Shown here in pieces: positions 33,402 to 57,582 of a DNA stretch of 64,000 nucleotides. The translations under genes and the position numbers were made by a program. The first letter of the stretch is position 1. The number at the start of each line of letters is the position of its first letter. Source of the stretch: Serpula lacrymans var. lacrymans S7.9 (lineage: Eukaryota; Basidiomycota; Agaricomycetes; Boletales; Serpulaceae); NCBI RefSeq assembly GCF_000218685.1, contig NW_006763292.1, positions 2,867,909-2,931,908 on the forward strand. The letters are read 5' to 3'. The notes under the pieces are model-generated. The model had not been told where the DNA came from. It ran no database searches and was given only the letters and a program-made list of their open reading frames with translations.

Positions 33402-35272
33402 ATGTCCATCCTAGATCTCAATACTGCCGTCGTCGCTGTCGTGCTTCTTGGTCTGACTGTCTGGCTCAGACGCCGAAATACTTCACCTAACGCTGTTATA
33501 AGACCTCCATATGCTTTCTCTTTAATACCATGGGTAGGAAATGCTCTTGACTACAAGAACAGGCCAGCAACATGGACACGCGAGGTTGAGAGTAAACTTG
33601 GACCTGTATATCAATCCACTGTCCTGGGTAAACCAGTCATATTCTGTCTATCCGTGAGTTCCTTAAATTTATTAATTAGTTCAAAGCTGTCGATTAATTA
33701 CCTCTGTGGTGTAGCGCACATTAATATCTCAGATATTCAAGAACTATCGCGATTTCTCATTTACTCCCATCAAAACTGATGCTCACCACCGTGTTTTCGG
33801 TGTTACTTTGGATGCTCTGTCTGACGAAGAAGGTCAAAAGACCATGTTTGCAGAGCTTTACCGGTATGTATCGTTTCTCCGAGTAACTTCATGTCATTGA
33901 TATACTCCCAGTGTCTTGTCAAAGAAGGCTTTCGGACCCATGGTTGGTCAAATTTCGGCCAATATGGAAGCTCGGTTTTCTGCTATTATAGGGAACATGA
34001 CTCCAAATGAGCGAAGGGACGGCAAACTCTTTAATTTAATGAGCCTCATTCCCCCTCTATTGTGGGTTTCTTCTTAAAGCATTTGACTCGAGCGGCTCAC
34101 TTTGAAATATTCTAGCTATGCAGCAAGTGCTCAAGGCATGTTTGGCGACACCTTCCCAGCTGATGACATATTCAAGTCCAACACCGACTTCGAGGATCAA
34201 TTTGGAGTATGTTCTTTCTTCTCTACCGTCCGAGAGTGATACTGAGTCTTTGTGTAGCTGATGTATACTGGGCTTCCTTTCCCTTGGCTGGTCAAGAGAG
34301 GGATTACTGGGCGAGACTACTGCATTGCTCGCGTGAAGGCTTCCTTGGCTCAATATGAAAGTGGAGAAGTTCAAGCACCTTACTTTATACAAGTGATGCT
34401 TGACTTGAGACATACTCTCGGCTGGACATCACAAGACCTTGCTGCTTATCTGTCTGTACTATCCCCCTCATTACAAGAAAACCTTCTCACTCATGTCATA
34501 GGCATTCTTACTTGTTCGCACTTACTTCAAACACGATATATGCCGCGTATTGGCTTGTGGTATACACATACACGCACCCAGAGGTTGTAGCTGAGATTCA
34601 GGCAGAAGTGGACCGAGCCGAAGCGGCCTTTTTGAAGGAAAACCCCAAAGAAACACCTACCGATCTTTTCGCCAATCTAGGATTCCTCGACGACAACTTC
34701 CCTCTACTGAACTCCATTATCAATGAATCGTTGCGTCTTTGCAGTAATGGCACATCTGTTCGAGAAGTTATGGCGGATATTGTGATGGATGTTCCATCCA
34801 ATTCACATGGTCCATCTGAATCACGCGCGATGCTCTTTAAGAAAGGCGATACCATTTATATGCCTAATCGTTATCATCATTGGAATCCTGAAGAATTCGA
34901 AGATGCTGAATCATTCGTGGCAACGCGATTCATGCCAGGCCAGAAACGTCAACCTGGTTTCTTCATGCCATTTGGTGGAGGCATCTCCGTCGTATGTCCA
35001 GTCTTCTTCTTAACGTATATGTTATCCTGACATGTTTGTTTGACCTGCTACAGTGTAGCGGACGTCATCTTGCCTCTGCGGAACTCAAGGCCCTTATGAT
35101 CATCCTCACGCGGTGGTATAATGTCAAGTACGAGTGTCTTGTGGATCGAAATGGCGAGAAAGTGAAGGATGCAAAACCGTTGGCAATCCCTCCATTTGAC
35201 CTGGGATCAGGTTCCGCCATCCTCCATCCTGAAGGAGACGTAGTCGTGCGCCTAAGGGCTCGTTCCAAATAG
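33402..35272 (+). CDS. Cytochrome P450 (P450-1), CYP7/CYP8-like type
   Basis: The first cluster monooxygenase is 508 residues in seven exons: 33402-33653, 33733-33863, 33912-34061, 34116-34206, 34258-34451, 34502-34991 and 35054-35272. All introns are GT-AG and the total is divisible by three. N-terminal anchor LNTAVVAVVLLGLTVWLRRR is followed by the proline-containing hinge (RPPYAFSLIPWVGNAL). The I-helix reads FALTSNTIYAAYW; the usual acid-alcohol pair is replaced by Asn-Thr, as in sterol-7-hydroxylase/prostacyclin-synthase-like P450s. ExxR is NESLRL. The haem loop FGGGISVCSGRHLA is split by the last intron just before the Cys. It probably oxidises the cluster diterpene at the endoplasmic reticulum; the unusual I-helix leaves isomerase- or dehydratase-type chemistry open. 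It is convergent with P450-2. Confidence 0.9.
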
Positions 35273-36139
35273 ATTGTTATTGTTATATATTAACTCATGT
35301 ATTTTGGGCTTATTCAAATTATTGCGATCCATTGTATGGTGTCGCGCACATTCTCGCAAGTCCCGACTTTCACCGCAGTGTATTCCGTTGTAGCATTACT
35401 TTACATATCACACTCTTTAGCCTCTATTTGATCAGCCAGTACTCTTGAGGATGATGTGGAGATACGGTATCGTGAGATTAGATAGGCTACCAGGAAAGCA
35501 CAAGTGCGCGCTCGTGCTCGTGCCGGTATCTCAAGCTTACAGTTGTTCTCCGAGCGACAGTAGATCTCTAAGGGGTGCTGAACGAATAAAGCGGACCCTG
35601 AAATGAGATTGAGTCATGTGGGCAATCTGGATATAATATATAATATTAACTATGCGCCCTATGCGTCAGCCTCAGTCTCCAGATTCCCGAGTCCATCTGA
35701 ATAATTTGAATTCATTTGGATGATTCATGTGTGCTTCATCGAAATACAGTAGTGTCCACCTTGGAAGCCACTTCGTAGATCTATTGTACTGGGATCAGCT
35801 CAGATTCAGCTGTAAGCTCGGTGTCGAGAGACCAGCACTTGGCACCAGGCGCAAGTCTATTAATAAGTATATTTCGACTTCGACTCGGACTTCGATAAAG
35901 ACCTCCATAAATGGAAGTGTCGAGCATCCTCTCAGCTCGACCGTTTATCGCTGACCCTTGAAGCTTGAAGTTCAAAGAAGTAATGTACCATACTTGCAGC
36001 AAAACGAATCTATTGAGCCCAAATGCTATCCAAGACAGTCATAATATATTAAATTACTTGTGATGATCAGAAGTACAGAGTAATATCTACACCAGCAATA
36101 CCCTTTTGCAACACAGAATGCAACCCTATGGACAATGAT
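35273..36139. other. Intergenic between convergent P450-1 and P450-2
   Basis: The 3' flanks of two convergent genes. No ORF with a recognisable domain and no repeat ends were found. Confidence 0.6.
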
Positions 36140-38204
36140 TTATGCTCGGCGCTCGTAGCCCATCCTCACAGGCTTTAGAGGCATAAACCTCTGCCAATCG
36201 TTCCTGTCAGGCTCAGGGTCCGAGCGAAGCAGTTCTCCTGACTTATCCATGGAAGAGAAATTGTATGAGGCAATGCAAAGAGCCTACGAGGGAGGGTAGA
36301 TGTGATTAATGTTGGGTTCCTTAGATCTTTATGACGCTGAATGTATACGTACAATTATAGTCTTGATCTCCAGTTTCGCCATTCGCATGCCTGTGCATGG
36401 GAATCGCGCAACTCCCCAGCCCAAGAAAGGATAAGTCGTCTTCTTCTCAGAGTCGTTGTCCACCCATCTGTTCGGGTTCCACGTCTCGGGGTCAGGATAG
36501 ATTTCAGGGTTGAGATGTATATCGTGGATGAAGTATGCCAAGAAATCGCCTTGAGCGATCTGTAGTAGATATCAATTAAGTCAAAAGGCTGCCAACAAAA
36601 GAGTGTAGTGTATTATGCGAACCTTCACACCGTCGGCCATGACAGGATCGTTGATGTTACGACGCAGAGCGATGATAGCAAAGACCAAACGAATAGTTTC
36701 CTTGATAACGAGTTCCAAAACAGGCATTTCACTCTCCCAAGTGTCCAAGGGAACGTGAGTGAGCTGTTCGACCAGTGAGCCAGTCATACCAGTGTTGTGG
36801 GCGGCTTTCTGGAGCTCTTCCATTACTGCCTTGTTCTGATCAGCATGGGTAGAAAGCTTGTTGTACAGATAATCACATCAGTATTGCAAAAGGAGGACTA
36901 TCAAGCTGGTAGCTCACATAAACCAAAGCCCAGGCAGCTATGGCGGCAGTGTTAACAGAGCCAGCGAAGAGAATCTTGAATGTATACTGTAAAAATTAAG
37001 TGAGTTAAGAGGACCGAGTTTGATAGCAAAGACTAATCCTACCTGAATGATGTCAGCGTCACGGTCACCAAGGTCAATCTGATACTGCATAGGATCATTC
37101 TCCCGTCTGCCTGTTTTCTTCCTCTCGTTAATGACGTTGGTGATGATATCAGCCAGTTCCTCGGTAGCTTTAGCAGCAGCTCTCTTCTGCCTCGTGCGTA
37201 ACCATGGGACAAGGTTAGTGCTGATAATATTTATATTTAGCCAATAAACGAGACCAACACAATAACAAAAGCTCACAAAGAGTTGGCGGAGTCTTCGATG
37301 GTCCAGTAAAGTCCACGAACGTGATCCCGGAGTTTATCGTTATCCGCGAATTCGGTGCATACAAGGAGACGACAAGTCAGTTTGAATACGAACTATATTT
37401 CTAGGTCATTAAAAGTGTATGTGATACCAAAGACAAAAACGAACCTCATAAACCCTTTGATAAGGGTCCATCTCGCCCGTCTTGCCCCATTTGCTGAGTT
37501 CACCAGTTATCTCGCTAACTATGGTTGGAAGGACTGGTCAAACCAGAAGCATCAGAATCACAATAATTACGTCAAATCGGGGACCATACCATCTGTAAGG
37601 TACTCGCGACGGATGAAATAGAGAAGACGTTCTTTGAGTTTACTATTGTCAAGCTCGATTTTCTCTCCCAGCTTAGAGGTCGTGGGGAACTGAAGTGACA
37701 GTCAAAACTGAGTATATCATAATGATATGAATAATTGATCCTTACCCCGCCCCGCAGGAAAAGGTATCCTTGATATAGACTGAGGTTCTTATCACCAAAG
37801 AAAAGCTGATGTATGCAGACGATGAGTTATAACGTCAGGATGATACTAGGTGCAATAAGTACCTTGCGCCCGGTTTCGCCATGCAATACATTCACTGTGT
37901 GTCCCACAGTGTGGAAATCGTATATACCACCGCGCTGTGGGTCTTTGTTCTGCTTGCGAAGCTTTTGCTGAGCTATTTTGAGGGTGGTGTCCATAAAGTC
38001 ATGACGAGCCGTAAAGAAGGCCAAATGTCCAAAGAAAGGTGTATGGCGAAGAACATGTTTAGTTGAACCAGAGATCCAAAAGTGGGAGAGAGCGATGAGC
38101 ACAATAGACGCTACAATTGTCCCAGAGCCGAACACAAATGCAGAAGACTGTTGCGGTATCTGGTCAAGTATATGGGAGACGTTCGAACTGATATAGGACG
38201 ACAT
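36140..38204 (-). CDS. Cytochrome P450 (P450-2)
   Basis: Multi-exon P450 on the minus strand. The start chosen is the ATG at 38204 (MSSYISSNVSHIL), which precedes the membrane segment FVFGSGTIVASIVLIALSHF; an in-frame ATG 33 codons upstream would add a His/Ile-rich leader and is less likely. Then come HTPFFGHLAFF, FHTVGHTVNVLHGETGRK, LFFGDKNLSLYQGYLFLRGG, LLVCTEFADNDKLRDHVRGL and TRQKRAAAKATEELADII. The I-helix is ILFAGSVNTAAIAAW, with Asn-Thr replacing the acid-alcohol pair. ExxR is IKETIRLVF, the PERF-like region is WNPNRWV, and the haem loop is FLGWGVARFPCTGMRMA. The C-terminus ends LKPVRMGYERRA with TAA at 36140-36142. The FPCTGMRxA loop resembles CYP51-clan-like fungal P450s. It is divergent from the GGPP synthase, sharing a promoter region of 835 bp. 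Confidence 0.88.
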
Positions 38205-39039
38205 CGTTGTCGTTGCTGTAGAAGAGAAGGTAGACTGGGGTGTCAATTTTCCAGCGAGTCCATCGATATATATGTGTATGTGTATCCATCGGTGCGATGT
38301 CAATGTCGCGTATCCCGTGCGGAGCCTAGTCTAGATGTCCTTTGATCCTCTGCGGTGGCATACTAATGTGTGATCCGTGATGCGTCACACCACAATTTGG
38401 GCTCAGCGGCAATCACCCCCAACAGGTTTATCCAAACTTCATTCGAAATGGGTGTCACCGCACAATAATGCTCGATTAGCCTCGATAGTTCCTGACACTT
38501 TCTTGTTCTAGCTCAAAGCTCAGATCCCTGTAATTGGTATACTAAATGGTTAGCGTATCTAGGAAAGGCTCATTGGTAATGCCTTATGGCCTCTGAGATC
38601 TGGCGATTGACAGTTCTCCCAAGTGAGGCGCAAAATGCAGTATAGTCAGCGGCCGTATACCACCAGTGCATATCCAAGAAGTCGGGGGTTATCGCTGATA
38701 TCTCTCAGAGAGCCTATTGGAGCCATTCGCGGGCGGTTACCTTACCCGCGGCTGAACCGCCCTGGCAGTTGTGAGCTCATCTATCTCTACAGGTCTCCGC
38801 TAACCATATGAGTTTTACATCACTATTGATGCGTGGCTTTAGGTTGCGGACTGGTAGGCACAGCATCCTATACCCATTGACAATCCATGTATGGCTCTTC
38901 TGCATATGAAGATTACTCACACTGTGACACCGTGCAGACTATTAATCGTCAACATTGCGTCTTGATTCTTTCAAAATTTTCTTCTCTTCTCCTGTCTTCT
39001 ATTCTTTCTTCTCTACCATCTTTTACCTGATTTTTTCTT
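38205..39039. promoter_or_regulatory. Shared divergent promoter, P450-2 / GGPP synthase
   Basis: 835 bp lie between divergent start codons. It contains CGGCCG at 38650-38655 and pyrimidine-rich runs just before the GGPPS ATG (38965-39035), typical of fungal transcription starts. No ORF of note. Confidence 0.5.
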
Positions 39040-40372
39040 ATGAGCCTAAGTGCATACCGTACATCCGCGTCCATGGCCGTAGCACAGTTAGCTGATCGTC
39101 GCAGTTACAACGGAATCCTCAGTGGTCTTGTCAGCTACTTCTCCGACGCCGCATCAACGATGGAAGAAACGTCATACGACTTCTCCAAGCCTCTTGTCCC
39201 CGTGAATGTCTCCTTCGACTATATAGATGGCAAGACAGAGATCACGTTGAATGACGAGGCTAGTATCTCTCTCGTCGTCGTTCGTGTCGTTGTCATTTAC
39301 ACATCTCCAACAGGAAAAACTTCTCGAGCCATTCACATATTACCGACATGTTCTCTCAGGAAAAGGCCTTAGAAAGGCTCTTCTAAATGCTTTCAACCAC
39401 CACTTGGGACTTCCACAAGTCTGGATCGACGGTATTGTATCCATTATTGAAGACTTGCACAACTCCTCGCTTTTGTATGTACACTGATATTTTTCACGTT
39501 ACGTTACTAATTTAACTTCTGATAGGATTGACGATATCGAGGATGGATCGCCTCTTCGTCGAGGTTCTCCCACAGCCCACATCAAATATGGGGTTGCTCC
39601 TGCTATAAATTCAGGGAACTACGTGTACTTCTTGACGATGGCCAAGGCGGCTGCTCTTGCCTCAGAACACGGTGCTGATAGCTCCGAGATGACCCGTGTT
39701 TTCATCGACGAAATGCTAGAGCTACACCGTGGTCAAGGAATGGAGATTTGGTGGAGACAGAACAGAGTTTGTCCCACCGTTGAGCAATATCTGCTCATGG
39801 CCGAGCGGAGTAAGTTCTTCCCATGCGCTTACTCATTCCTTAGCAAAGTGCTCATTCTTCCTCCTTTCGCAGAGACTGCTGGTCTTCTCAGACTCGGTGT
39901 TCGGCTTATGCAGTGTCACCCAAAATCTCCTGCGAAAGTCGACCTATCATCGCTTGCAGTACAGATCGGCGTTTACTATCAAATCCGTGACGATTACATC
40001 AACTTAGCTTCAACGAACTACACAAGCCAAAAGGGCTTCGCTGAGGACATTAGTGAGGGGAAGTACGGCTTCCCAATGATACATTCATTGATGGCCGCCC
40101 CAAATTCTGGTCTTGCTCGTACGAACACATTTCTCATAACAATGATCTATCCCTAACGTTGTGTATTTCCAGAAATTCTTGACCAGAAGCCCGAGGCTAT
40201 CCCTATGAAGCGGAAGGCCATTGACATCATTCGCCGGACCGGTTCTTTCGAGGCAACAGTCGAGTGCCTGGTGCAACTTCGACAGCGGTTACAAGATACC
40301 CTAGTGGCGGCTGGTCGCAATCCAGGGCTTGAGCGCTTTCTTGCAGAGTTGTCTATAGAACATATCGAGTAG
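39040..40372 (+). CDS. Geranylgeranyl diphosphate synthase
   Basis: Class I trans-prenyltransferase that condenses FPP or DMAPP with IPP to GGPP, the cyclase substrate. 369 residues in five exons: 39040-39258, 39314-39474, 39526-39809, 39873-40118 and 40173-40372. Typical landmarks follow: EKLLEPFTYYRHVLSGKGLR, HNSSLLIDDIEDGSPLRRG (first Asp-rich motif DDIED with the RRG substrate-binding pair), GNYVYFLTMAKA, HRGQGMEIWWR, then GVYYQIRDDYINLAS (second Asp-rich motif DDYIN) and FAEDISEGKYGFPMIH. The 73-residue N-terminal extension before the prenyltransferase core is Ser-rich. Intron 1 appears to use a GC donor (GAG then GCTAGT); GT donors nearby do not restore the frame in a sensible way. As a second, cluster-resident copy it would secure precursor supply for the pathway. 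Confidence 0.93.
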
Positions 40373-41007
40373 TTAGCTAGGCATTGCATTTAGGCTTAAG
40401 TTATGATCGGGTATCCATTTATTTATATTGGATGTATCTTGAAGGGGGCACTCTGTAGGCAGGCATGATAGTGATCTTTGCGCGAAGGGAATTGTTTTTT
40501 TTAACTTGATGTAAGATTTCATGTGGCCCTAGAGACAAACAGACAGAACGTGTATATGTATGTAAGAGTAGAATGCCAAAATGATTCACAGATTCATTGA
40601 TCCATCACTGGGTGGTAACGTGAACGAAGCCGGAAATAACAACTCGAGGTTACCTTGATATCATATTATCGTTATCCCTCGACTATACCCGAGATGATTT
40701 GAGGCGAGCAGTCGCAAGGTAACATTTTATTTGCTACGTGTTATATTCAAGTTTTCACAGCTAATACCTACAAATGAATTCTACACTAACTCAAATACAT
40801 TTTGTTATCGAGTAATAGCAACTGAATATTCCTTCGCAAATGTTTATTATAGAGAATATTGAGTGGGGGGTGTATGAATCTTGGACCAATTACAGATTGT
40901 ATAAATATCAAAATACTTTAAAGAGGTGATTTCTGATCGCTGTGCACGATAAGCCAGCGGGGGCCAACAGCCGACTCATGGCGGTGGGTCTTGCCTTCCA
41001 TAAAACT
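40373..41007. other. Intergenic between convergent GGPPS and P450-3
   Basis: 3' flanks of convergent genes; AT-rich, no gene or repeat ends seen. Confidence 0.6.
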
Positions 41008-43619
41008 TCAAGCATTTTCTGCTTCCTCCATCTTGACCCACATTCCTCCCTATTAGGCAATAAACATCAGCCTTACGAGTCTACAGTGCCAAGCATAAGA
41101 AACCAGCGATACTTACCACAGAGTACAAAGTTAGAGTGGCTTTGGGCCGGAACTTCTCTATGCCCTTTCGACCGCCAGCTGTAGCCCATTCGGCGGGAGG
41201 GCGACATTCAGGAGATTGAGCATCAAGATCAAGTGTGATCGATGAGAAATTTTGCAGCAGACGAATGAGCATGAAAGACATCTCGTTGTACGCGAACTGT
41301 GAGTGGGTATCGCATAGTCAGTGTACGACAACAAAAAAAAGGTTGCACAAAAACTGACTTGCTGGCCAAGACAAATACGTGGTCCTGCATTGAATGGCAA
41401 GAAGATAAACGGGTTGGGTATCAAATACTTCCTCAGCCGGTCGTCGAGGAACCGATCAGGGTCAAATTCATCAGCTATCACAAGGGTTCAATTTCTGGCC
41501 GACAAAATGTAGGTATCGTCACTCACCGTCTGGACCCCATAAATCAGGCCTGCGATGCATGAGCAGGACGGAATAAGCAACGCTAAATGTTTTTTATAAG
41601 ACTACCAGATGCACAAAGGGAAAAATATCCACGAACGTAGTCTTGGCGGGAATGAATAGTGGCTTTTCCCCAGGGTTCGGTGAAGACAACGTAGTATCAT
41701 TGATACTTTCGCTATATGCATTAAACAAGAATTCAGTAAGGCAAAAACAAGCAATAAACAACAAGATCACTGACCGCACATTGGCGGGACTGAAAGGTTG
41801 ACGTGTGATGTGAGACATATCTTTTTATTGTTTGAATATTACTTACACTGCAGGAAAAAGTCTCAATGTTTCTGAAGATAATAAAGGTAAGCTTCAGCTA
41901 AATAATTGCATGTGACGCTTTACCATTCAGGACTGCGCGAATATACTTCATATCCCTAATATCGTCATAGGTGGGCCTTCGGCTGGGTCCAATCTTCGCT
42001 AGTACCTCCTCCCGAAGACGGGTAAGAACATGCGGGTGCATTGCAAGCAAATAGATGGCAGAAGTCAAGGTCGAAGCAGTCTAAACGAAGAACGATTGAT
42101 ATTGACATCAGGAGACTGTGGCGTGACATACCGTGTCTCGACCAGCAAGAAGGATGTTGAGCACTTCATCTCTCAGTAAAATGATGTCTATAACGGGGGT
42201 ATTTAAAATTCTCAACATCCACGTCGACAAAAATGTCTTCCTTACCTGTGGTCTGGTGCACAAGATGTCCCAGAAGTGTTTCTTCGTCCTGAAACACGTC
42301 TTTGTCGGCATCAGAAGACGATTGGTGCTTTTGAATAGCTTCCTTCAAGATCGGCTCCAAAAATTCATTAACAATCTGCATGGGCCCTGCCGTTCTGTCT
42401 CCAAATAATTCCAGCAGAGGCCATGTCTGGCCGACTGTCAAGCGCTTGGCGATGCCATGTTGGGCCTCTAAAAATGCGCGCGCGAACCGCTCCGAGGAAC
42501 TGTTGTCGGGAAGTTCTGCTTTGTCAACATTATAAGGACACGGTAGTGCAGCGAAAAGTGTGTCGACGCAGTGTCCGAACAAAAATTCAGTGGCCGAATC
42601 CAAAGTAAATCGCGAAATTACATCCTTATTCCGCGGTGAACAGTATTATTACAAGAGAGCTAACGATGAAATAAACAAACACACACCTGGAAATCAATAG
42701 CGTGGCCGAGATTGAATCGCTCTTTCATCAAGGAAATTGTTTTGTCCGTATGCCGGTCAAATATATCAAAATGGCTAATCTTATCGTGATTGAAGAACGG
42801 ACGAGTCACGGCACGGTGAAACCTGAAGCAAATGTCGTTAGCCAGTGCCCATTGCCTACGGGGCAGAGTCCTTACTTCCATGTTTCTCCTGAGAATCATT
42901 AATTAGAAGTTATGGCTGTCATATATGGTGATTTACTCACCATCAGAGTTGAATACGCCAGTGCCTAAGACGGATTGAGCTGTTGCACGGAAGTTGTCCC
43001 CTATTTATGATCACCGTTAACATGATGGGAAACCAATGAAGAACGTTCGCACCTTTCCAGTAGTTGTTGAACTCAGTAGCAAGGATCGACTACATTCAGA
43101 TCGTCAAAGCGATGCATGGATGTTTATGAATACTACTCGCCTTGATATGATTTGGCTCCGTTGTCATGATGATATCCTCCCATAGTAAGTTCAGGTTGAT
43201 GGTTGGTCCGTATGTGACCATATAGTCATACATGACCTGGCCTGAGCGGGGAAATGGCATGGTGAAGTCACAGCTTGATACGACCTAGATACGAACATAC
43301 CATTATAATCATGCTCACTTCTTTTCATAATCGTTGTTAACACGTCTATGTTCCCAATCCGTTTCCCTTCAACACACGGGACTGCTCGTGCGCCCAGTAT
43401 CATAGCTCTTCTACGACGGGAGCGCTGAGTCCAAGCCACGCGAACGGCGAACGCGATCGGAGTACCACCAACGAAGAAAGCCAATATCGCCCATAACGGG
43501 AGAGAGGGGTCGTAGAATGAAAAGATACGTGAGACAGCAATGAAGAGACCAACAGCAGGAACGACGAAGGAGAAAAACCAGCGGATGAGCAATACCACAC
43601 CTGGTGTCTTCCACGACAT
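41008..43619 (-). CDS. Cytochrome P450 (P450-3), CYP52/CYP63-like type
   Basis: Intron-rich P450 starting at 43619 ([11 protein letters not shown]) with two N-terminal hydrophobic segments ([31 protein letters not shown]) and a basic stretch RSRRRRA. Exons then give [74 protein letters not shown]-helix [20 protein letters not shown] (canonical AGxDT), Exx[12 protein letters not shown], a 15-nt micro-exon (41775-41789), the PERF region [12 protein letters not shown], and the haem loop [12 protein letters not shown] then [17 protein letters not shown]. It ends [13 protein letters not shown] with TGA at 41008-41010. The FNAGPRxCLGQQFAxxE loop is characteristic of the CYP52 clan (alkane/fatty-acid hydroxylases and the basidiomycete CYP63 group). 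A terminal-carbon or ring hydroxylation in the cluster is plausible but unproven. Confidence 0.9.
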
Positions 43620-44143
43620 GTCAGTACCGGATTGAATTAGTTGTTCAAGTTGCTGCTACAGCGCTACTGGGATGCAAGAGCCACCTACAGCGATATGATA
43701 TGGTAGGAGTTTCCGACATAAACCTAGATGTCATAACATTTTATATCATTTCTGAGTTCAGGTTACTACGATTGATGGGGTGCAGATTTCGTCTGATTCG
43801 TCCCGTACATAGTAAGCATAACCGTGCCGCCTAGCGCTGCCTCGAAAGGACAGTGACGGTTGTCCGAGTCTCTCCGCAGACAAGGGAGAAAGACATTATC
43901 CGAAACACAGAGTCAGCGTCAGAATTTGATTTTCTCACGATTAAGTCTGCATGACATTTGCTTATACACCAGCCGTTCGAGTGCGTCACTGGTAGACGGT
44001 ATTGATCCGTATTTCAGGAGGTCATCCGTATGTTTTCCAGACTTTTCTCGCTCGAAATGTTGGATTTTGTCTTTTTGCATAAAACAAGATATTACATTGA
44101 TGCCTGTTGGCTCCCCTGATACTAATAACTCAATTAATTCCAT
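43620..44143. other. Intergenic between P450-4 stop and P450-3 start
   Basis: 524 bp between two minus-strand P450s. It must hold the P450-3 promoter and the P450-4 terminator. ORFs seen in it have no recognisable domain. No CGGCCG motif is present here, unlike the other cluster promoter regions. Confidence 0.55.
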
Positions 44144-46703
44144 CTATCCTTGTACTCGTTCGACAAATAGCGGCATCTCCACGGAAAGCTCCTCCCCTTT
44201 CATCACCGCCGGGACCATCACTAGCTGCATGCGTTTCAAGACATCGCATTGAGGGGGATGGAAGACAAAGTTCCGGATAAGCTCAAACAACATCACCTGC
44301 GACTCGAGAATCCTATCAAAATAGGACTTAGTTTGTTATCCCACGTCGTTGGAGATATAGCAACACTCACAAGAAACGCCATCTGGAACGTAGAAAACGA
44401 GCACAATAGTTAGTTAGATTGTTCATGGTAGTATAGACAATAGGAGTACTTGCCCTAAACATGCCCTAAGTTGATGTAGTCAGACGTGAAGTTCAACTGA
44501 TCACAGATTACACAAAACTCACTTGGGTCCAGCGATAAAATTGAACAAGCCTGCATAGACACTAGGCGCAAGCTTGCCTTGGGTAGGAGTATACCAACGT
44601 TCAGGGACGAATTCATCGGCATTTGGCCCGAAAATAGCTTTGGAGAAATTATAGGAAATGATATCAGCATAAATGACCGTGCCCTTGGGACAAGGAATCT
44701 CCGACACTGTGGAGCCATCCTTCAGTACGAGAGGTCGTGATAGATTCAGGACTGTATCTGATGTTGCCATCTTCTCGTTGAAATGCACTACGGGATAGAA
44801 TCGCATGACTTCCTGTAGAGTTTGACAGGGACAAAAAAAGATAAGACAACGTTATCTCAGCCTGATTCGACGTATCCAGGAAGAAAGTGACAAACCTTGA
44901 TGAAAGCGTCAAATAGAGGCATAGATTTCGATGAGAAGATATTCGAGTCTTGTTCAGCATCATATTGCTGGGCGTTGGCTAGAATTTCTTCTCGAACACG
45001 ATCTTGAAGCTCAGGCTGCATTGCGAGTTGATACAAGGCCCATGATATACTGTGTGACCACTGAATTAGACTGTCCATGGTATGTCTGAGATAACGCACT
45101 CACAAGGCTGCGGATGTTCCTTGAGGATGCAAACATGTAAGTTACACTAGATTACAGGAAGGATAATACGAGTTCCTACCATGACCCGCGAAGAATCTAT
45201 AGGTAGTTAAGCAAAAATATATTAACATGACAACATAGTCACATACATAGAGGTAATCTGCGCTGTCATCTCACTCTCAGTCAAGCGCCACTTGGTATCT
45301 TCATTCAAGTTTGCTTTAACTGCAGTCAAGACCCAAGTAAAAACATCAGCACGCAAGACACGCAAGGCTAAGCCAACGTACGCATAAGAGTAAGCGCGTC
45401 ATTTGAGAGCGTATCGCCATTCTTGATTGCCTCCACTCGATCTTGCACCAGGGCCCGCGCGGCTTCGTTCGCGCTATCTAGGGATTTTGTTACGGCTTGC
45501 ATCAACTTGTTGGGGATTAAGGTGAGAATGTCAATCAGCCAAGAGGGACTGTATCGAATGAAAATGGATACAGCAGACTCTTCTGCTCCCATCGTGTCGC
45601 TTCAAGTATGCGCTTTAGTGATATCCACGAAACAACAAGAGAACTGTCAACTTACAGAAGAGTTTTATAAACATCAGCTAAATTCGATACGCTTTCAGCT
45701 CCTTGCATTCGGCCGACAGCACCAAGTGTCATTCCGAACGCTGCGAGGCCGATCATATCCAAAGCAGATGCTCCTAGCCAGCTACGAAGAATCAGAAACG
45801 AGTAATTTAAATGATGATGAGAACACCTACTCGAAAACATCTATAGCTGCTTTCGCGTCCTTCTTTCCGGATTCTGCCTGTGCATCAGCGAGATTTCCCC
45901 ATGCGTCCACAAGCTGTAAGTATGGACCAGTTTTAATTTGCTAAATACGATAGTGCTATGACCTTACTGCCAAAGCCCCATGTCGGAAGTGGGGAAGCAA
46001 GTTTCTCACGGGCCCTGCATTGAACGCGGGCTACGAAATGTTTTAGAAAAATAGAAAAAACACGATATGAACTCAAGTAAGCACCGACCTGCATAATTCG
46101 CTTTATACGATGATGTGCTTCACCTACGCAATATGATCAATCTTTCCCCATCATAGTGCATCCAATAAACCACGTACCTTCAGATAAGATAATTCCACCT
46201 TTTCCAACCAGTTTTTCGCCAATTGCTGTCATTGAAGGTGGCCGAGCAAATGAATTATTCGTATCATAAACTTTCCACAGTGCAGTCGGGTCAGATATGA
46301 ACAAGCCGTCACCCTAATTAACAGATTAACAAAACAAATATGGATGTTATTCTCCAAAACTTACACTAAAGAAAGGGCCTTTGATGCGGAGCACTGTGTT
46401 TTCGTGGAATTGCTGGCGCCATATCAATGGTAACGAACCAGCACCAGAGGTAGATAGTTCCAATAAGTTTCCTGTCAGGAAGGTTTTGATGAGTACCAAC
46501 TATACTTTACGAATGATAGACGCACCAGCTAAGATGGAAGAGGATGGGGGGCCAGGAATCAAATCAAAGAATGAAGGTCTTCGGAGTCTCCTGTACGCCA
46601 AATGACCTAAAAATGCTGCTCTAAACATACAATGTTAGCATGACGAACTGATATTCTAAGAAGATTCTTACACCAGTCCCGTTAAGATGTAAAATGACGA
46701 CAT
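44144..46703 (-). CDS. Cytochrome P450 (P450-4), intron-dense with micro-exons
   Basis: The P450 starts at 46703 (MSSFYILTGL), joined through an intron to AAFLGHLAYRRLRRPSFFD and the hinge LIPGPPSSSILAGNLLEL. Then: GDGLFISDPTALWKVYDTNN, IGEKLVGKGGIILSEG, HHRIKRIMQPAFNAGPVRNL (helix C WxxHR-type region), LGASALDMIGLAAFGMTLG, I-helix RFFAGHGTSAA leading to ISWALYQLAMQPELQDRV, ExxR KEVMRFYPVVHFNEK, and the PERF region ADEFVPERWYTP. The haem loop FNFIAGPKACLGWRF is assembled from the end of one exon, a 12-nt micro-exon at 44454-44465 carrying the Cys codon, and a second 12-nt micro-exon at 44371-44382. It continues ILESQVMLFELIRNFVF and ends MPLFVERVQG with TAG at 44144-44146. It is divergent from the cyclase. 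Confidence 0.88.
44371..44465 (-). other. Two 12-nt micro-exons encoding the P450-4 haem loop
   Basis: Reading on the minus strand, GGCATGTTTAGG (44454-44465) supplies Ala-Cys-Leu-Gly and ATGGCGTTTCTT (44371-44382) supplies Trp-Arg-Phe-Leu. The intron between them (44383-44453) begins GCAAGT, a GC-AG intron. Reading through without splicing gives a stop within about 13 codons, so splicing is required. Confidence 0.7.
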
Positions 46704-47576
46704 TGACCACGTCTGTGCGTGAGAAAGATAGGTTTTGGTAGAAGTAAGAGTGCAAAGCAAATCAGGGCTTTAAGTAAAAGGCGATCTGTTGAAGTATTTG
46801 ACCCTCTACTAAGCTGTGTCTGGAATTCGGTAATATGCAGTTGATATTTGTGGTAAAGTCGATCATAACGCCCGCGTCGGTATAAGACTTTTACACTGCT
46901 ATGATAAAAATTATCTGAAGGCACCAAAAGTGGGTCCATCATGCACTTGCACAGCGGCCGTAAGACATGTAATAGACACCGCGGACAGCATGTAGTCCGT
47001 CCTAGAAAGGGGTGTTCTCGGACGTTTGGAGATAATGGCTCTGAATCAGTGGACAGCACATGATAATTGTTCCCTAAATGATAGAGCTACAAGGGCGAAC
47101 TGCAGCAGAACGAGGTGACCAGGTTTAAATTCATGTTCATTCGTCTGACTTGCGCTTTGTTGTTGTTTACTTTCATCTCCGCGCCATTCAATTAGTATTA
47201 CAGCATTTCTTCAAATCGTCGACTTCTTGATGTCCATTTTGCTTGTTCACACCCAAACATCTCCTCCTCTTAATAGTCAACTTAGAGTGGACATCTATGT
47301 TTTATTCAATTGCTAGCAAAATAACAGCGAAGTACACAGTGAAATTATGAAGGTGCAAGCGTGATTGTGCGTGAGAAAATGTGAGCAGTCTGCGGCCGCA
47401 CTTGTTTTTCGAGTCTCGAGTCTCATTTTGATCTTAGCTTAGCATACATTCCGAGTCGGTACTGCCATACAGGTGATAATGATTGAAGATGATATGGTCC
47501 AGCATGACTACGCTCAAACATATAATAGTCTTCAGCGCCCTCTTCGCATTTTACAATTCACCAACCTTTCTACGAT
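46704..47576. promoter_or_regulatory. Shared divergent promoter, P450-4 / diterpene cyclase
   Basis: 873 bp between divergent start codons. It contains CGGCCG at 46955-46960 and the palindrome TGCGGCCGCA at 47391-47400, 177 bp before the cyclase ATG. A TATAATAG string lies about 57 bp before that ATG (near 47520). Confidence 0.5.
47391..47400. promoter_or_regulatory. Palindrome TGCGGCCGCA upstream of the cyclase
   Basis: Identical 10-mer to 33175-33184 upstream of P450-1. Candidate binding site for a Zn2Cys6-type regulator; hypothetical. Confidence 0.35.
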
Positions 47577-50500
47577 ATGTCTATTACTTCTCTAGTCAAC
47601 ACCTCCTTCGACTGGCATGACCACGCCAACGCCTTGCTAAAAAGTCTTACCACGAGATATAGCGACCAATATGGGTTGGGTACTATGAGCGGAAGCATCT
47701 ATGATACCGCATGGGTCTCTCTCGTTTCCAAAACAGTCGACGGGTCCACCCAATGGGTGTTCCCTCATTCTTTCCAGCACATTTACAACGCTCAGTCCGC
47801 CGATGGGAGCTGGCAGGGAGATGGTTCTATTCCAGATGCTATTATCAACACCATGGCGTGTCTTCTGTCGCTCAAGAGTCACGAATCATCTTGGAACGGC
47901 GGCGTCAACGACATCGCTCCCCGTGCCGCCAAAGCTGCCTCCTACCTTGTTGACGCTCTCCAGGGCTGGGACATCCTCTCAACAGAGCGCATTGCGTTTG
48001 AGATGATTGTGCCCAGTCTGATGGAGCAGCTCGAGAAATACGGGCTCACGTTTGACTTCCCTCAGAAGGAGATTCTTCTCAAACTCAGTAAGAAAAAGTT
48101 AGCCATGGTCAACTTCGAGATTGTCTACAAGCACCACACCACCGTCCTGCACTCGCTTGAAGCGTTTGCAGGAAAGATTGACTTCGATCGTTTGACGCAC
48201 CACCTTAGAAACGGCAGCTTGATGGCCTCCCCATCCTCGACTGCAGCATATCTTATGTACGCCTCCAAATGGGACGAGAGCGCAGAGCGGTATCTCAACC
48301 ACGTTATCGACCAATGCCAGTCTTACGGGTACGGTGCTGTCTGCAACGTGTGGCCCACGACAGTATTTGAATTTTCTTGGGTATGTTCCTGTTCCTGTTC
48401 TGATTTCTGATCCCTAATCTAACTATTATTTCTATATAGTCTATTTGTAACCTTTTCGAAAGCGGATTTGATGCCTCGAGGTTGGACAAGGAGTGCTTAG
48501 ATCGTATTGCGAATATTCTTTACGACTCTTTGGCAGCAGAAAAGGGCATCATTGGTTTCGGTAAGTTATTTATTTCGTTCTATATCCACCATCTCGTTCT
48601 CACATCTATATATCATTTGCTTCAGCTGCTAATGTCGGACCTGACTCCGATGACACCGCAAAGGCACTAACAGCGCTCCAGTTCCTGCAAAAGCCGTTTT
48701 CCATGGATCCATTGATTAAAGCCTTCGAGTTACCCACCCATTTCCAATGCTTCCAATTCGAGCGTAATCCAAGTCTCAGCGCTAACTGCAACATTCTGAT
48801 TGCACTTCTGCGGGCTTCTAACCCAGCTGGATATGAAAATCAGATATTGAAGGCGGCAACGTTTATCACCAGCGAATGGTGGACGACAGAAGGAACTGTG
48901 GAAGACAAATGGGTATGTCTGCCTATGCGATCAGCCGTGCTATGTCGTTGTTAATTGAATTTCTGGTTCTAGCATCTCTCACGTTGGTATCCTGCGATGT
49001 TGACGTCACAGGGCTTGGTCCATCTCCTCTACCTCCACGGACAGGGCCTGTTCCCCCAGATTTCTGACGACCTCTTGAAGGTCAAAATACCTACTACCTT
49101 GTTCACGATTATCGTTCGGATCCTGCAGTCCCAACGTCCTGATGGTTCTTGGGGTGAAGGAGGAAGCCGTGAAGAGACTGCATATGCTGTCCTCGCGCTT
49201 GCAAATCTCTCATCTCTTCCATACAGCGAGCTTATCCGAGAACAAATCGCTACATCAGTCTCTCTTGCTCGTTCCTACTTAACCACGAGCAATGCCGTCG
49301 ACAACCTCCACATTGCTCCTGCTGACTACATCTGGGTTGGCAAAATTGGATACGGCGTCGAGCACGTCTGCAACTCATACATTGTCTCAGCACTGAATAT
49401 TGCTGTACCTCTGTACGAACCCAGCACCGTCTCAGTTGGAGCTCCGCCCATCCCAGTTAGTAAGGTGGAGTCGTTTACCAAGTTCTATGGACGTCTCCAG
49501 ATGTACAAGGGTTTCCCGAAGTGGCGTTTGGTGGCATGGATCGTCGAGGGCTATCTATACCTCCCAGAGTTGGCTCGTGTGCGTCTAGATGTATTTGATC
49601 GGGATGGTATGAAGAAAGACCCATACTTCGAGTACCTGCCTTTCTCGTGGACGGGCCCGAATGGGATGGAAGAGACATACACAAGTCCGCAAACTATATT
49701 TGATATGATCGTCATTTCGATGGTCAACTTCCAAGTTGACGAGTTCTTCGATCTCGTCGTACAGAAGCACGGTCCAGGAGCGATCCAGAGTTTAAAACAT
49801 GCTATCGGGGTCATTTGCGACGACCTTGAGAAAGGCATCGTCCCCAAAGCACTTCCAAAAGCGGGTACCAACGGTCACTCAAATGGTCACTCAAATGGTC
49901 ACTCGAACGGGACCAACGGTACAGAGAGCGAGCAGAAGGACTCCTCGTACCAAGACATTCACAGCCGACTCTCACACTTTGTCAACTTCGTTTTCACGTA
50001 TCCCAGAATCGAGTATGCGAGCCCCAACGACCATGGCCAGCTCCGCCGTGAGATGAGGATTTATCTCCTTGCGCACACGCAACAATGCGAAGACAACGTA
50101 CGCTTGCAGGCCCAAGAGCACTTCGACCCCTACCTAACACCTCCTTCATCATATCTTAAATGGGTGCGAGGCACAGCCTCTGACCATCTAAGCTCGCAGT
50201 ACGCTTTTGCATTTATCGCTTGTCTGCTTGGTCACAGCCAAAATAAGGCGAAAGGTGGTGTTCGTGAGGATTACTTCCCAACCGCCGAGATCAAGTACAT
50301 CGCGCAGGATTGCAGCGGTCACCTCTCCGTCATTTGTCGAATCTTCAATGATTGGGGGTCGATGCGTCGTGACAGAGAGGAGAAGAACCTTAACGCGACC
50401 TTCTTCCCCGAGTTTGAAGGTCGTGCGAAGAACAAGAGCGATGAACAGCTCAAATCGGAGTTGCGCGCGATATCAGATTACGAGCGCAAGACTTTGCAAT

Positions 50501-50652
50501 TGTCGTTTGACGAGTTGCTCCGTGTGTGTCAAAAGACAGTGGGCCCTGCTCAAGGGAAGAGACTACACGAGGTTGTGAGACTATTCTATAATGCCAGCGA
50601 GATGTATACGGAGATATACGAGTTTAGGGATCTCAGTACATGGCAAGCATAG
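47577..50652 (+). CDS. Bifunctional labdane-type diterpene cyclase (class II + class I)
   Basis: Core enzyme of the cluster: 963 residues in four exons (47577-48380, 48440-48560, 48626-48912, 48973-50652). The N-terminal half has the beta-gamma fold signatures (YGLGTMSGSIYDTAW; SADGSWQGDGSIPDA; RPDGSWGEGGSREETAYAV). The class II acid motif is DSDD at residues 315-318 (GPDSDDTAKA), which protonates GGPP to a copalyl-type diphosphate. The C-terminal half has the class I motif DEFFD at 660-664 and NDWGSMRRD at 863-871, an (N/D)Dxx(S/T)xxxE-type metal site with Asp in place of the last Glu. Domain order and size match fungal bifunctional cyclases such as that of pleuromutilin (about 960 residues). 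A linker of Asn-Gly-His-Ser repeats (about 704-719) from 12-bp DNA repeats separates the two class I motifs. The product skeleton cannot be deduced. Confidence 0.95.
49869..49915 (+). repeat. 12-bp tandem repeat in the cyclase ORF
   Basis: About three and a half near-identical 12-bp units encode Asn-Gly-His-Ser repeats, keeping frame. Likely a length-variable, disordered loop. Confidence 0.85.
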
Positions 50653-52217: not shown

Positions 52218-52272
52218 GTGCGCAAAAGCCACGCAGGAAATAATTCTTATTTGAAACGGCAACCCCGGAACC

Positions 52273-52968
52273 ATGACCACAGCATATGATACATCCGCAT
52301 GTCCAGTTCTCACTGGACCCAACAATTTTCAGATATGGAAACTCTGGATCATCTCAAAGCTACGTTGGGAAAAAGTTCTCCGGGTTGTTACTGGAGAGGA
52401 GCTTAAGCCCTCACCAGGAAAACCTACCTCCTTGGAGAATCCTGAGATCACCTGGATACTTAAGGATGAGAAGGCACATGGAATCATCCAGGACCACATC
52501 TCTGATACCCTCCTAATGAGGACTGGAGACCTCACCAGCTCCAAGGAGTTATTTGATAAACTTGTCTCACTCCATCAGACGTCCAACATTGCCTCGGCCT
52601 TCTATTCATTCCAGCAACTCACCAAATTGTCCTAAGATGGGATATCACCTATCCAGGACCACATTGCGAAAAACCGGACAATTGATTCACACCTCTCCGG
52701 AATGAAACTAGGAGTTGATACCAAACTTATGGCCTTTGCTCTTCTCCAATTTCTCCCATGCACTCCTGAATGGCAAATATTTCAGTTATTGGTAATCAAC
52801 ACGATTGAAGAAAATAAACTTACCTTTGATGCAGTTGAGATCCGGATCACTGCAGAAGTTGCACGACAGTCAGGGAAGGCCCCTGGAGGTTCCAAATCAG
52901 CACTCAAATCTGAGGAGAAGTGGTGTGACTTCCACAAAGCCAAATCACACAACACCTCGGAGTGTTGA
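52273..52968 (+). pseudogene. Copia C gag
   Basis: Starts MTTAYDTSACPVLTGPNNF at 52273, followed by WKLWIISKLRW. The frame is closed by a TAA after LTKLS (about 52633-52635) and continues in the same frame (GISPIQDHIAKNRTI) to a C-terminal zinc knuckle WCDFHKAKSHNTSEC, a C-x2-H-x4-H-x4-C variant, ending in TGA at 52966-52968. Nucleocapsid/capsid protein of the element; inactivated by the internal stop. Confidence 0.85.
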
Positions 52969-54043
52969 ACACTTCAGTCAGCTGGAAAAGGTCAAAGGAA
53001 GAAGGGAAAGGAAAGACACAAGGATAAAGGAAAAGAAAATGAAAAGGCAAATACGGCGGAGCAATTATCTGGATCTGACTCTGAGGAGGAACAGAGTCAT
53101 ATTGTATTGGAACATGTACATATTTCCAAGCCTCTTGCTAAACACATTCAAGCTTACCTTGTGTCAGAACCCGATAAGACCAAAACAATAATCATCATTG
53201 ACTCCGGATCAACATCCTACATGGTCCCTCACCGCTCCTGGTTTGAGCCAGGAACATACCATATTCTGCATCCTCCAAGGACAATCAGTTTTGGGGATGA
53301 ATCCTCTGTAAATGCCATTGGCATTGGAACAGTAATCCTACAAGCAACTGTTGGCAAAAAGGACTACAATATTGCACTGTCGAATGTCTTACTTGTGCCA
53401 AACCTCACTTTAGCACTCGTTTCTGTCCACAAATTGTCCAAAATGGGGTTATCAACGCTTTTTCCAGCAGGGTCAAATGCTTGTGAAGTTCGGAAAAAGA
53501 AGGAACTTATCCTCACTGTCTTACACAAGCGAGGACTTTATCACATCCAAACAAAACCCGAAATCAACCCGGAGTCAGCTTTTGCAGCAAAGATGTAAAT
53601 TTATTGCACAGGAGAATGGGACACATTGGAATGGACCGCTTGCAACAAATGGTTACAAAAGGACAGCTCCAGGACATAGACACCCTTACTGGAACCCCGG
53701 AGTTTTGTGAACCTTGCGCTTTAGGAAAGATGAAGAAATTACCTTTCAAGTCCACTGGAGGAAACCAAGCCAAGTGCCCCATAAAAATTGTGCACACGGA
53801 TGTTGGAGGACCAATCAAACCAACTTCCAGGGAGGGTTTTCGTTATTGGATTATCATTGTAGATGATTTCTCCAAATTTCCATGGATATATTTCCTAAAA
53901 CATAAAAGTGAGGCACTGGAACAATACAAGCAATGGAAAGAAGATGTCCAAACATTCTTCCGGACTCATTTGGGAGAAGAAAACTTCACTCCACTGTACA
54001 CAGAATTCCTCCAGAGCGATGGGGGAGGAGAATATACTGGCAA

Positions 54044-54459
54044 TGTTACGATAACACAATTTTTGGACCTTCCCTTTACTTTTATTCTCCGCTTTAACCT
54101 TGTACGTTTAGCTTTCACACATGGTGCCACGCGGCACTTCCCCTTTCGTCCAAACTCCTCTTTCTCGCGCCACATTGCCTTTTTTTTATTATAGACACAA
54201 CTCTCTCACACAGTGGAGCTGGCCATGCGGGCTAGGCCCCATGACATCATCAATAACTGTCGCTATTAACTGTATAGTACACACGTACAAATAACCCTGT
54301 AGTAGTATATATACCCAAATAGATCCAGGAGACTCCTCAGCGAGTCCTCCTGTTGTATACCAACTAACTCTCTGCATCCTAAGGGGTAACCACTCCCTCT
54401 TCATTCTCTTTATAGTGTGTTCCTGTGTGCGCCAGAGTAACTAACTCTTGGTTGTTACA
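54044..54459 (+). mobile_element. Solo LTR family A in Copia integrase
   Basis: Starts TGTTACGATAACAC and ends GGTTGTTACA, 416 bp, with perfect GGCAA duplications (54039-54043 and 54460-54464). Its removal joins GGGEYTG to NAFKNQL in the integrase frame. Confidence 0.95.
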
Positions 54460-56402
54460 GGCAATGCATTCAAAAATCAACTCCAAGGAGATGGTGTCAT
54501 CCAAGAAACTACAGCTGCAGATACTCCGGAACAAAATGGCATTGCAGAACACATGAATCAGACATTGGCTATATTAGCAACCACTATGCTCCATGATTCC
54601 AAGCTCCCAAAGTCATTTTGGGTAGATGCCATGCAAACAGCTGCATATATCACAGCACGCAGCCCAGCATCAGGACTCCATAGAAAGACCCCATATGAAA
54701 TACTGTTTAAAAGGAGAGTTGATCCAACTTTATTCCGCCCTTTTGCATGCCAAGCATATGCCTTGATTCAGAAAGACAAAAGGCAAGGGAAGTTTTACTC
54801 CAAGGGGCGCAAAGCCATAATGATTGGCTACACACATGGAAAGCAAGCCTACAAACTCCTAGACACTGAAAAACAAACTGTGTTTTCCTGTCGGCATGTC
54901 ATATTCATATTCAATGAATCCGGAAAGGTACAAAAGGACAACACTGCTCCCTGGAACACAGACACTAGCACAGATCAGTGGGAGGGACTCATTCCAGAGA
55001 ATGCTCACTATCCAGACCAAAAAACATTGGAGGAGGATAATCCTGACCCTCGGATCCGAGATCCAAATGAATTGCAAATGGAACCACATCTCCAAGGAGA
55101 TGTTCCACAAGCAATGGTATCATATCAGCATGGGAGGACAGCCCCTCAACATACAGCCAGCTGATGTGGAAAAAGTCTGAATACAGCTAGACAGCCTGTC
55201 CATTGGATCAGCTTCTGGAAGGCATATAACACCTCTGAGGAGTCATCCAACGCCTCCGAGGAGTGATTCAACACCTTTAGGAGTGAGTGGGGCAATACAC
55301 ACACAAATGTGTCTACTCCCTGGAGTACCTGCACAAGTTCCTAAAAGAGCAGTCATGCCTGCTGAAGTCCTAGGAGTACACGGAAGCAGTCGCCAGACCC
55401 GTCCTGCAGACAAAAACTGAGATTATCAAAGGACTCTAGATAAGGAACAGTCTTGAAAAGAGCAGCATGACAACCCCATGGAGAAACCTAACGCTCCTGA
55501 GGTTCATGAAGAAACATCTGATACAGAGGAGACATTCTTTGCTGGAATAACAAGTACCAGTCCATCTAACACAGACCTTCCAAGGACACTAAAGGAAGCC
55601 TTATCACGTCCGGATGGAGAATTATGGAAGTCTGCCTTGGAGGAGGAACTCCTAAGTCTCAATACTAATGCAGTATATGACACTGTTCCACTTCCGAAGG
55701 GAGTGAAACCCATCACATCAAAACCTGTGTTCCGGTTTAAGTTTGATCAAAATGGAAACATTGAGAGATACAAACTCCGGATTGTTGCACGAGGTTTTAC
55801 TCAAAGGGAGGGGATTGATTACCAGGAGGTTTTTGCTCCGGTTGCAAACTTAGAGTCGATCCAAATTATTCTAGCCCTGGCAGCAAAGTACGACCTAGAA
55901 CTTGATCAAATGGACGTATCCACAGCTTATCTCAATGGAGAACTTGAAGAAGAACTGTACATGCTTCCTCCAGGGGGTGTTCCTATCCAACCTGGATACT
56001 GCTGGAGATTGAAGAAATCCATCTATGGGTTAAAACAAGCTGGTTGTACATGGAACAAAACTTTTGATCGCAAGCTCCAGGAGCTCGGCTTCACAAGACT
56101 AAATGCAGAAACATGTCTCTATGTGTTCCGGGACAACAAACAAATATGCTTTGTTGTTGTCTATGTAGATGACCTCCTCCTAGGAGCTTCATCCCAAAAA
56201 TTCATGGATATCACAAAAGCCAAACTCAAATCCATATTCAAAATGCGGGACCTTGGAGAAGCAAAATACATCCTTGGAATAGAAATCCAGTGTGATCATT
56301 CAAACAAAACAATATCCCTATTGCAATGCCAATACATTGACACAGTCCTGGAGCGTACTGGAATGAAGAACTGCAAACCAGTATGGACACCAATGGCCCA
56401 TG

Positions 56403-56817
56403 TGTAACAACCAAGAGTTAGTTACTCTGGCGCACACAGGAACACACTATAAAGAGAATGAAGAGGGAGTGGTTACCCCTTAGGATGCAGAGAGTTAGTT
56501 GGTATACAACAGGAGGACTCGCTGAGGAGTCTCCTGGATCTATTTGGGTATATATACTACTACAGGGTTATTTGTACGTGTGTACTATACAGTTGATAGA
56601 GACAGTGGCTGATGATGTCATGGGGCTTAGCCCGCATGGCCAGCTCCACTGTGTGAGAGAGTTGTGTCCAAAATAAGAAGAAAGGCAATGCGGCGCGAGA
56701 AAGAGGAGTTTGGACAAAAGGGGAAGTGCTGTGTGGCACCATGTGTGAAAGCTAAAGTACAAGGTTAAAGCGGAGAATAAAAATAAAGGGAAGGTCCGAG
56801 ATTGTGTTATCGTAACA
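56403..56817 (-). mobile_element. Solo LTR family A between Copia RT and RNase H
   Basis: Starts TGTAACAACC and ends ATCGTAACA, 415 bp. Flanks CCATG (56398-56402) and CCATA (56818-56822) are a target duplication with one mismatch. Its orientation is opposite to the copy at 54044. Confidence 0.93.
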
Positions 56818-57582
56818 CCATAGATCAGAACTCCTTGCAAATGCTCCAGGGGAAGATATTGTGCAACACAAGATGCATATTGAAGGGTGCCAAGTGTCAT
56901 ACCTCTCAATTGTAGGCTCCCTTATGTATGCCATGCTCGGAACCCGCCCAGACATTGCCTACGTTGTTGGAATACTAAGCAGGCATAGCTCAGCTCCAAG
57001 GAGCCATCACTGGGAAGCTGCAAAATGTGTCCTCCAATATCTGAAAGCAACCAGGGACATGGAACTACCATATGATGGCACAGATGTCTCCATGGACATG
57101 GATTTCTATGGATATTCAGATGCAGATTGGTCTGGAGACCCAGACACATCTCGATCAACATCAGGCTTTGTTTTTATCACCATCCGAGGAGCAATCTCCT
57201 GGACAAGCAAAAGACAAAGCATGGTAGCTTTATCCTCCACGGAGTCAGAGTACATTGGATTGAGCAATGCTGGACAACACCTTGCATGGCTTCGGACATT
57301 TTTTGAAGAAATTGGACATGCTCAAAATGGACCTACAACATTGCACTGTGACAATCAAGCAGCTATTATTCTTACATGAGATCCACAGTTCCGTGCTCAC
57401 ACAAAACACATTCAATGGAAATATCATTTTATCCGAGATGACTTAGTATCAAAGGGAGAGGCAGTAATCAGATATGTTCCTACAGGAGATATGGTTGCCG
57501 ACATTTTCACTAAACCCCTCACTCACAAAAAACACTGGAAATTCTCTAAAGCTATGGGACTACGGTTGCACTCGAGTGGGAG

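Follow-up and report, generated by a model that had tools for sequence, protein, structure and literature searches.

A catalogued diterpenoid gene cluster of Serpula lacrymans and its bifunctional cyclase with a predicted ent-copalyl diphosphate intermediate

Positions 33402-50652 of a 64,000-nucleotide stretch of the Serpula lacrymans var. lacrymans S7.9 genome (contig NW_006763292.1; the whole stretch is called the window below) raise the question of which diterpenoid, if any, is made by the genes located there and whether the system is new. The interval holds six genes, namely a geranylgeranyl diphosphate (GGPP) synthase, a single class II/class I diterpene cyclase of 963 aa and four cytochromes P450 (P450A to P450D), and the final six gene models are free of internal stops. 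From the sequence, a working diterpenoid cluster can be proposed with fairly high confidence. As an overall explanation, which we regard as reasonably probable, this already catalogued cluster would form ent-copalyl diphosphate (ent-CPP) and then an ent-type diterpene that is oxidised by the P450s. The original prediction placed no unrelated gene between the six, and the gene models agree with this. The longest intergenic call of the gene predictor was 59 aa and no further gene was detected among the six; two intergenic stop-to-stop frames of 131 aa (43857-44252, plus strand) and 134 aa (46682-47086, minus strand) were passed over by the predictor.

The system is not a new one, because the cluster was described by Fischer et al. 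(2015, BMC Microbiol 15:221, PMC4617483). In the available part of that paper, the motif rows printed for 'S. lacrymans_a' read VDALQGWDILSTERIAFEMI, ANVGPDSDDTAKALTAL and VISMVNFQVDEFFDLVVQKH. The window cyclase contains each of these rows without a single difference, which identifies the window cluster as the S. lacrymans_a locus. The same source lists one GGPP synthase (EGO03064) for this cluster and four P450s in its Table 2 but five in its text, whereas we count four compact P450s and two more past a gap; it also describes synteny with Punctularia strigosozonata, where the cluster is more compact, and considers transfer between fungi possible (PMC4617483). The proposal of a candidate new system therefore fails, since the S. 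lacrymans cluster and its syntenic Punctularia partner have both been published since 2015. The suggestion of a possibly undescribed diterpenoid fares better: although the cluster itself has been in print for years, no product for it was found in the open-licence literature searched, a body of work that mostly excludes subscription papers. As far as the available part of PMC4617483 goes, the His/Asn pair of the cyclase, the link to the pleuromutilin GGPP synthase and the Stygiomarasmius locus, all discussed below, go beyond the earlier description, and some of this may already be contained in that paper. Taken together, this is a system of a known kind, catalogued in 2015, for which the stereochemical prediction is now sharper than before.

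The cyclase gene (47577..50652, plus strand, 4 exons, 963 aa) encodes DSDD at residue 315, DEFFD at 660 and NDWGSMRRD at 863, so that the DSDD, DEFFD and NDxxS motifs originally read from one 963-residue chain are all present. A Pfam scan of the protein gave no family at E ≤ 0.001; it is identified instead by its homologues and motifs, both of which agree with the labdane-related cluster with a bifunctional cyclase that had been predicted. The search returned 632 homologues at E ≤ 0.001, and the comparisons given here cover the best 120 of these 632. Closest among the matches listed is VKT23_009321 (P0002) of Stygiomarasmius scandens, with 64% identity over 98% of the length and without a functional name; a near-identical cyclase of known product was thus not among them. 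All three Asp residues of the class II DxDD motif are kept in 118 of the 120 listed homologues. The class I motif ends in Asp in the window (DEFFD) and in 19 of the 116 listed homologues with a letter at this position, the other 97 having Glu, while the NSE/DTE motif ends in Asp instead of Glu in the window and in 112 of 113. A genome search with the cyclase matched its own exons alone, making it the sole copy found. In a tree of 48 rows (the window and 47 hand-picked from the 120 listed; quick method without bootstrap), the window sequence falls into a set of 9 together with Stygiomarasmius, two Mycena, Dendrothele, Rhodocollybia, Gymnopus and two unnamed rows, and all 21 ascomycete rows lie on the opposite side. 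According to the available part of PMC4617483, no more than five basidiomycete species were known to have bifunctional diterpene synthases in 2015; basidiomycete cyclase relatives are now more numerous among the matches listed and come mostly from Mycena. The predicted fold of the orthologue P0002, computed from an alignment with 37 further sequences, reached a predicted local distance difference test score (pLDDT) of 90.1 and a predicted template modelling score (pTM) of 0.91. In this model, residues 6-546 match class II cyclases and residues 576-936 match class I synthases; the predicted structure of this 64% identical orthologue is thus of the alpha-beta-gamma type, with each half fitting its class.

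The stereochemical prediction comes from two residues of the class II site. By phmmer and MAFFT, His192 (within LHS; codon 48150..48152, plus strand) and Asn257 (within CNV; codon 48345..48347, plus strand) align with His263 and Asn322 of the Arabidopsis copalyl diphosphate synthase (CPS) and are the proposed base residues. In the accessible part of PMC11795633, the Arabidopsis residues are described as holding the water believed to terminate the class II reaction at ent-CPP, and the LHS and PNV motifs as conserved among phytohormone CPSs of plants and bacteria. Asn occurs at site 257 in two of the 117 listed homologues with a letter there, P0002 and P0006 (Mycena venus), and P0002 bears the same His/Asn pair as the Serpula cyclase. 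The pair, being of the ent-CPS type, points to ent-CPP as the class II product, which it supports but does not prove, and to an oxidised ent-type polycycle downstream. That the first product belongs to the ent series is a prediction of moderate confidence.

From these features we infer stereochemistry, skeleton, oxidations and role as follows. The cluster's own GGPP synthase would supply GGPP. At the class II site, the DSDD acid and, as base, a water held by His192 and Asn257 would give ent-CPP, which the class I site (DEFFD, NDWGS, Mg2+) would then ionise to yield an ent-type tri- or tetracyclic diterpene, for example an ent-pimarane or ent-kaurane. P450A to P450D, probably together with the two P450s beyond the gap (P450E and P450F), would oxidise this diterpene to a polar, perhaps defensive compound.

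One alternative is an ent-kaurene pathway leading to gibberellin-like compounds, in favour of which the His/Asn pair is that of the phytohormone CPSs (PMC11795633, accessible part). The diterpene synthases (di-TPSs) of Moniliophthora are moreover expected to work, given that gibberellins are produced by those fungi (PMC4617483, available part). The P450s argue otherwise, as the solved structures nearest to P450A are CYP8 and CYP7 and P450C belongs to the pc-1/pc-2/pc-3 type. In addition, Serpula decays wood and has no plant host, and we consider a gibberellin-like product improbable. Two Fusarium proteins named for kaurene and of the CPS/kaurene synthase type, P0085 and P0121, are homologues of the Serpula cyclase that share about 35% identity with it across 98% of the length, but they have DEYME where the window has DEFFD and Gly where it has Asn, and they lie on the opposite side of the cyclase tree.

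Several relatives of the cyclase depart from the bifunctional architecture. Three proteins of its clade, P0102 of Dendrothele (574 aa), P0080 of Rhodocollybia (576 aa, deposited as partial) and P0097 of Gymnopus (577 aa), keep DADD and lack the entire class I domain; they may have arisen from bifunctional ancestors as separate class II cyclases, unless the models are truncated. P0103, a 586-aa protein of the bdelloid rotifer Adineta steineri (49% identity over 59%), is placed on the basidiomycete side of the tree, which may reflect transfer or contamination, and has DADG for DxDD. The long relative P0003 of Mycena sanguinolenta has DADS as its acid motif, Phe for the His of LHS and no class I motifs, which would fit an activity that was lost or altered, or else an error in the model.

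The GGPP synthase raises the second alternative. Its gene (39040..40372, plus strand, 5 exons, 369 aa; polyprenyl_synt, 9.4e-58) encodes DDIED and DDYIN, has a first intron of the GC-AG type and wholly contains the deposited P0242 (SERLA73DRAFT_120049). Over the full length it is 62% identical to the Punctularia and 51% to the Clitopilus enzyme, and the best other GGPP synthase matches within the genome reach 44% and 46% by exon. A 33-row tree was built from the window sequence and 32 sequences hand-picked from the 104 matches of a joint search with the GGPP synthase, P450E and P450F; its outgroup is very long, and housekeeping basidiomycete GGPP synthases were not deliberately included. In this tree the window sequence, its deposit P0242, Punctularia and the pleuromutilin GGPP synthase of Clitopilus group together in a clade with 100/100 support, whose stem is long (1.99). 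The clade adjoins Catenaria with weak support (84/74), whereas ascomycetes are its neighbours in Fischer et al.; in the wider set used there, the Serpula and Punctularia enzymes likewise stand apart from the main basidiomycete clade (PMC4617483, available part).

This shared ancestry would be expected if the pathway were pleuromutilin-like, that is, if the cyclase formed a ring-contracted, premutilin-like skeleton that is then oxidised by other P450s. A set of GGPP synthase, cyclase and P450s occurs in each of Serpula, Punctularia and Clitopilus, and the pleuromutilin cluster of Clitopilus passeckerianus resembles the Serpula one in its GGPP synthase lineage, its bifunctional cyclase and its several P450s (PMC4855138 and PMC5705593, in the parts available). 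It differs from the six Serpula genes in having an acetyltransferase and a short-chain dehydrogenase/reductase (SDR) as members, three P450s and a ring-contracting class II reaction (same sources). No Clitopilus-named row stands among the best 120 of the 632 cyclase matches, some of which are nameless, and the sole Clitopilus-named row among the 104 matches mentioned above is the GGPP synthase. The original prediction held the gene set to be unlike that of pleuromutilin, which is right for the six genes. No acetyltransferase is among them; the acetyltransferase family PF02458, the one family searched, has its sole genome match on another contig (C15), the right border of the cluster being unsure. 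The companion claim that an SDR is lacking applies to the six genes only, since an SDR gene is located at C3:2953.4-2954.6 kb, and a gene missing from the window may still belong to the locus. On this evidence a pleuromutilin-like skeleton seems unlikely.

The four P450s of the window are dissimilar, with 20-31% pairwise identity over the aligned parts (calculated before the last corrections to P450C and P450D). P450A (33402..35272, plus strand, 7 exons, 514 aa; p450 Pfam 3.1e-29) equals P0127 (SERLA73DRAFT_176582) letter for letter. Its nearest solved structures by PDB rank are prostacyclin synthase and CYP7A1, and within the genome only P450F (31%) is clearly related to it, one other match being marginal (E 1e-3). 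P450B (36140..38204, minus strand, 10 exons, 512 aa; p450 Pfam 1.4e-37) is CYP51-like by PDB rank and has the haem loop WGVARFPC. P450C (41008..43619, minus strand, 16 exons, 588 aa; p450 Pfam 7.8e-77) is of the pc-1/pc-2/pc-3 type, which we take to be CYP63-like; it differs from the deposited P0129 (SERLA73DRAFT_158706) solely by 26 residues absent from the deposit, and paralogous exons are found elsewhere in the genome at 86% (C2) and 80% (C19). P450D (44144..46703, minus strand, 17 exons, 545 aa) equals P0130 (SERLA73DRAFT_158707) letter for letter and has AGHGT in the I-helix; its p450 Pfam value of 9.7e-50 comes from an earlier 541-aa model, since corrected, in which a stretch directly behind the haem cysteine was wrong. 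The haem loop of P450D, FIAGPKACLGWRF, spans two 12-nt exons. Among the introns of the six models, three start with GC rather than GT, including one that lies within this loop. The matches listed include no deposited Serpula model of P450B or of the cyclase, and both models come from our own splicing plus homologues. Complete haem loops had been claimed for all four P450s; the loop cysteine is present in each, but the loop of P450B, FLGWGVARFPCTG, has Ala at Cys-4 and Phe at Cys-2.

How far does the cluster extend? To the right of the cyclase, a 25 kb gap is followed on contig C3 by two further P450s beyond the window, 25-30 kb from the cyclase: P450E at about 2944.0-2946.2 kb (minus strand) and P450F at about 2946.6-2948.6 kb (plus strand). 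Judged from sequence comparison, the Serpula cluster probably continues past the gap to include both, because the Punctularia relatives of P450E (75%) and P450F (65%) share one contig of 2,271,234 bases with the cluster-type GGPP synthase (62%). P450F is further tied to the cluster as the only clear genomic relative of P450A and because its S. scandens relative (VKT23_009315, 56%) lies six locus tags from the cyclase VKT23_009321 on the same contig of 1,074,579 bases; the S. scandens locus thus resembles that of Serpula in this neighbour as well as in its 64% identical cyclase with the same His/Asn pair. A common large contig is weaker evidence than adjacency. Given this evidence from beyond the window, the reading of the six genes as the likely complete cluster was rejected, and the compact set originally described is probably incomplete by two P450s; P450A to P450F together occupy about 47 kb. 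Two other genes on this side are possible further members, a flavin adenine dinucleotide (FAD)-dependent oxidase with a BBE domain to the right of P450F (L021:8369-9957, minus strand) and the SDR gene mentioned above (L022:1764-2974, plus strand), 35 kb from the cyclase.

The flanks bear on a third alternative, a decaying or silent cluster that was invaded by transposons and makes no product today. Repeat families are present in both flanks, and the remains of a fragmented copia-type retrotransposon (52255..57376, plus strand; Retrotran_gag_2, SH3_retrovirus and RVT_2 in three of the four open reading frames (ORFs) scanned) lie at 52-57 kb, between the six genes and P450E/P450F. A short P450F-like relic (L031:4692-5068, minus strand; C3 about 2852.7-2853.1 kb), with matches of 65 residues at 45% and of 45 residues at 33% (E 0.11), is found about 48 kb to the left of P450A, and the altered haem loop of P450B would also fit decay. 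On the other hand, the six frames are open, the cyclase motifs are intact, and P450E and P450F have full-length deposited models in strain S7.3. Decay or silence is therefore quite unlikely in our view.

Elsewhere in the flanks, gene prediction fused many genes and served for spotting pieces alone. A putative major-facilitator-like transporter gene, labelled by sequence reading, lies at the left edge of the window (132-2880, plus strand); it was rejected as a member, being 30 kb off with a fragment at 12 kb, which we take to be Mpv17/Sym1-like, and an 807-aa ORF in between. Pfam found no family in the ORFs 3608-6028, 12067-12222, 29623-30363 and 56816-57376, and an assembly gap of 100 N (18306-18405) lies in the repeat-rich left flank.

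Several observations weigh against a route through ent-CPP to a P450-oxidised ent-diterpene. The Pro of PNV is replaced by Cys256 in the Serpula cyclase (CNV), and P0006, one of the two other homologues with Asn, has no class I motifs. In the accessible part of PMC11795633, the LHS/PNV rule is established in plants and bacteria, and ent-CPP formation is possible without these motifs. The Asn is neither required nor proof, because both Fusarium proteins named kaurene synthases, P0085 and P0121, carry Gly there. Whole-chain superposition of the P0002 model on plant three-domain enzymes leaves 20-22 Å, so that the mutual placement of the domains is non-plant or unsettled. The GGPP synthase lineage leans towards pleuromutilin, whose cyclase yields a ring-contracted skeleton. 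The P450B haem loop deviates from the WG(A/V/I)G(L/M)HPC of three genomic relatives, which were spliced by eye (a fourth stretch, L027, gave no readable loop). Finally, no orthologues of P450A, P450B or P450D outside Serpula are among the 120 listed relatives of the window P450s, because 118 of these best match the P450C piece, one each P450A and P450D, and none P450B.

Tentatively, and with more doubt than the pathway itself, the sequences may outline an agaricomycete lineage, represented by Serpula, Punctularia and Stygiomarasmius, that combines a GGPP synthase of the pleuromutilin line with a His/Asn class II site (residues from Serpula and Stygiomarasmius), kept or regained apart from nearly all fungal cyclases compared, and with up to six P450s, of which the CYP7/CYP8-related P450A and P450F are mutual best genome matches. 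Such a lineage would make an undescribed class of ent-diterpenoids. One bifunctional diterpene synthase makes the skeleton of the antibiotic pleuromutilin, and a related pathway is present here in a sequenced building-rot fungus. Its cyclase predicts a specific stereochemical series and would offer a testable case for the plant and bacterial His/Asn rule in fungi.
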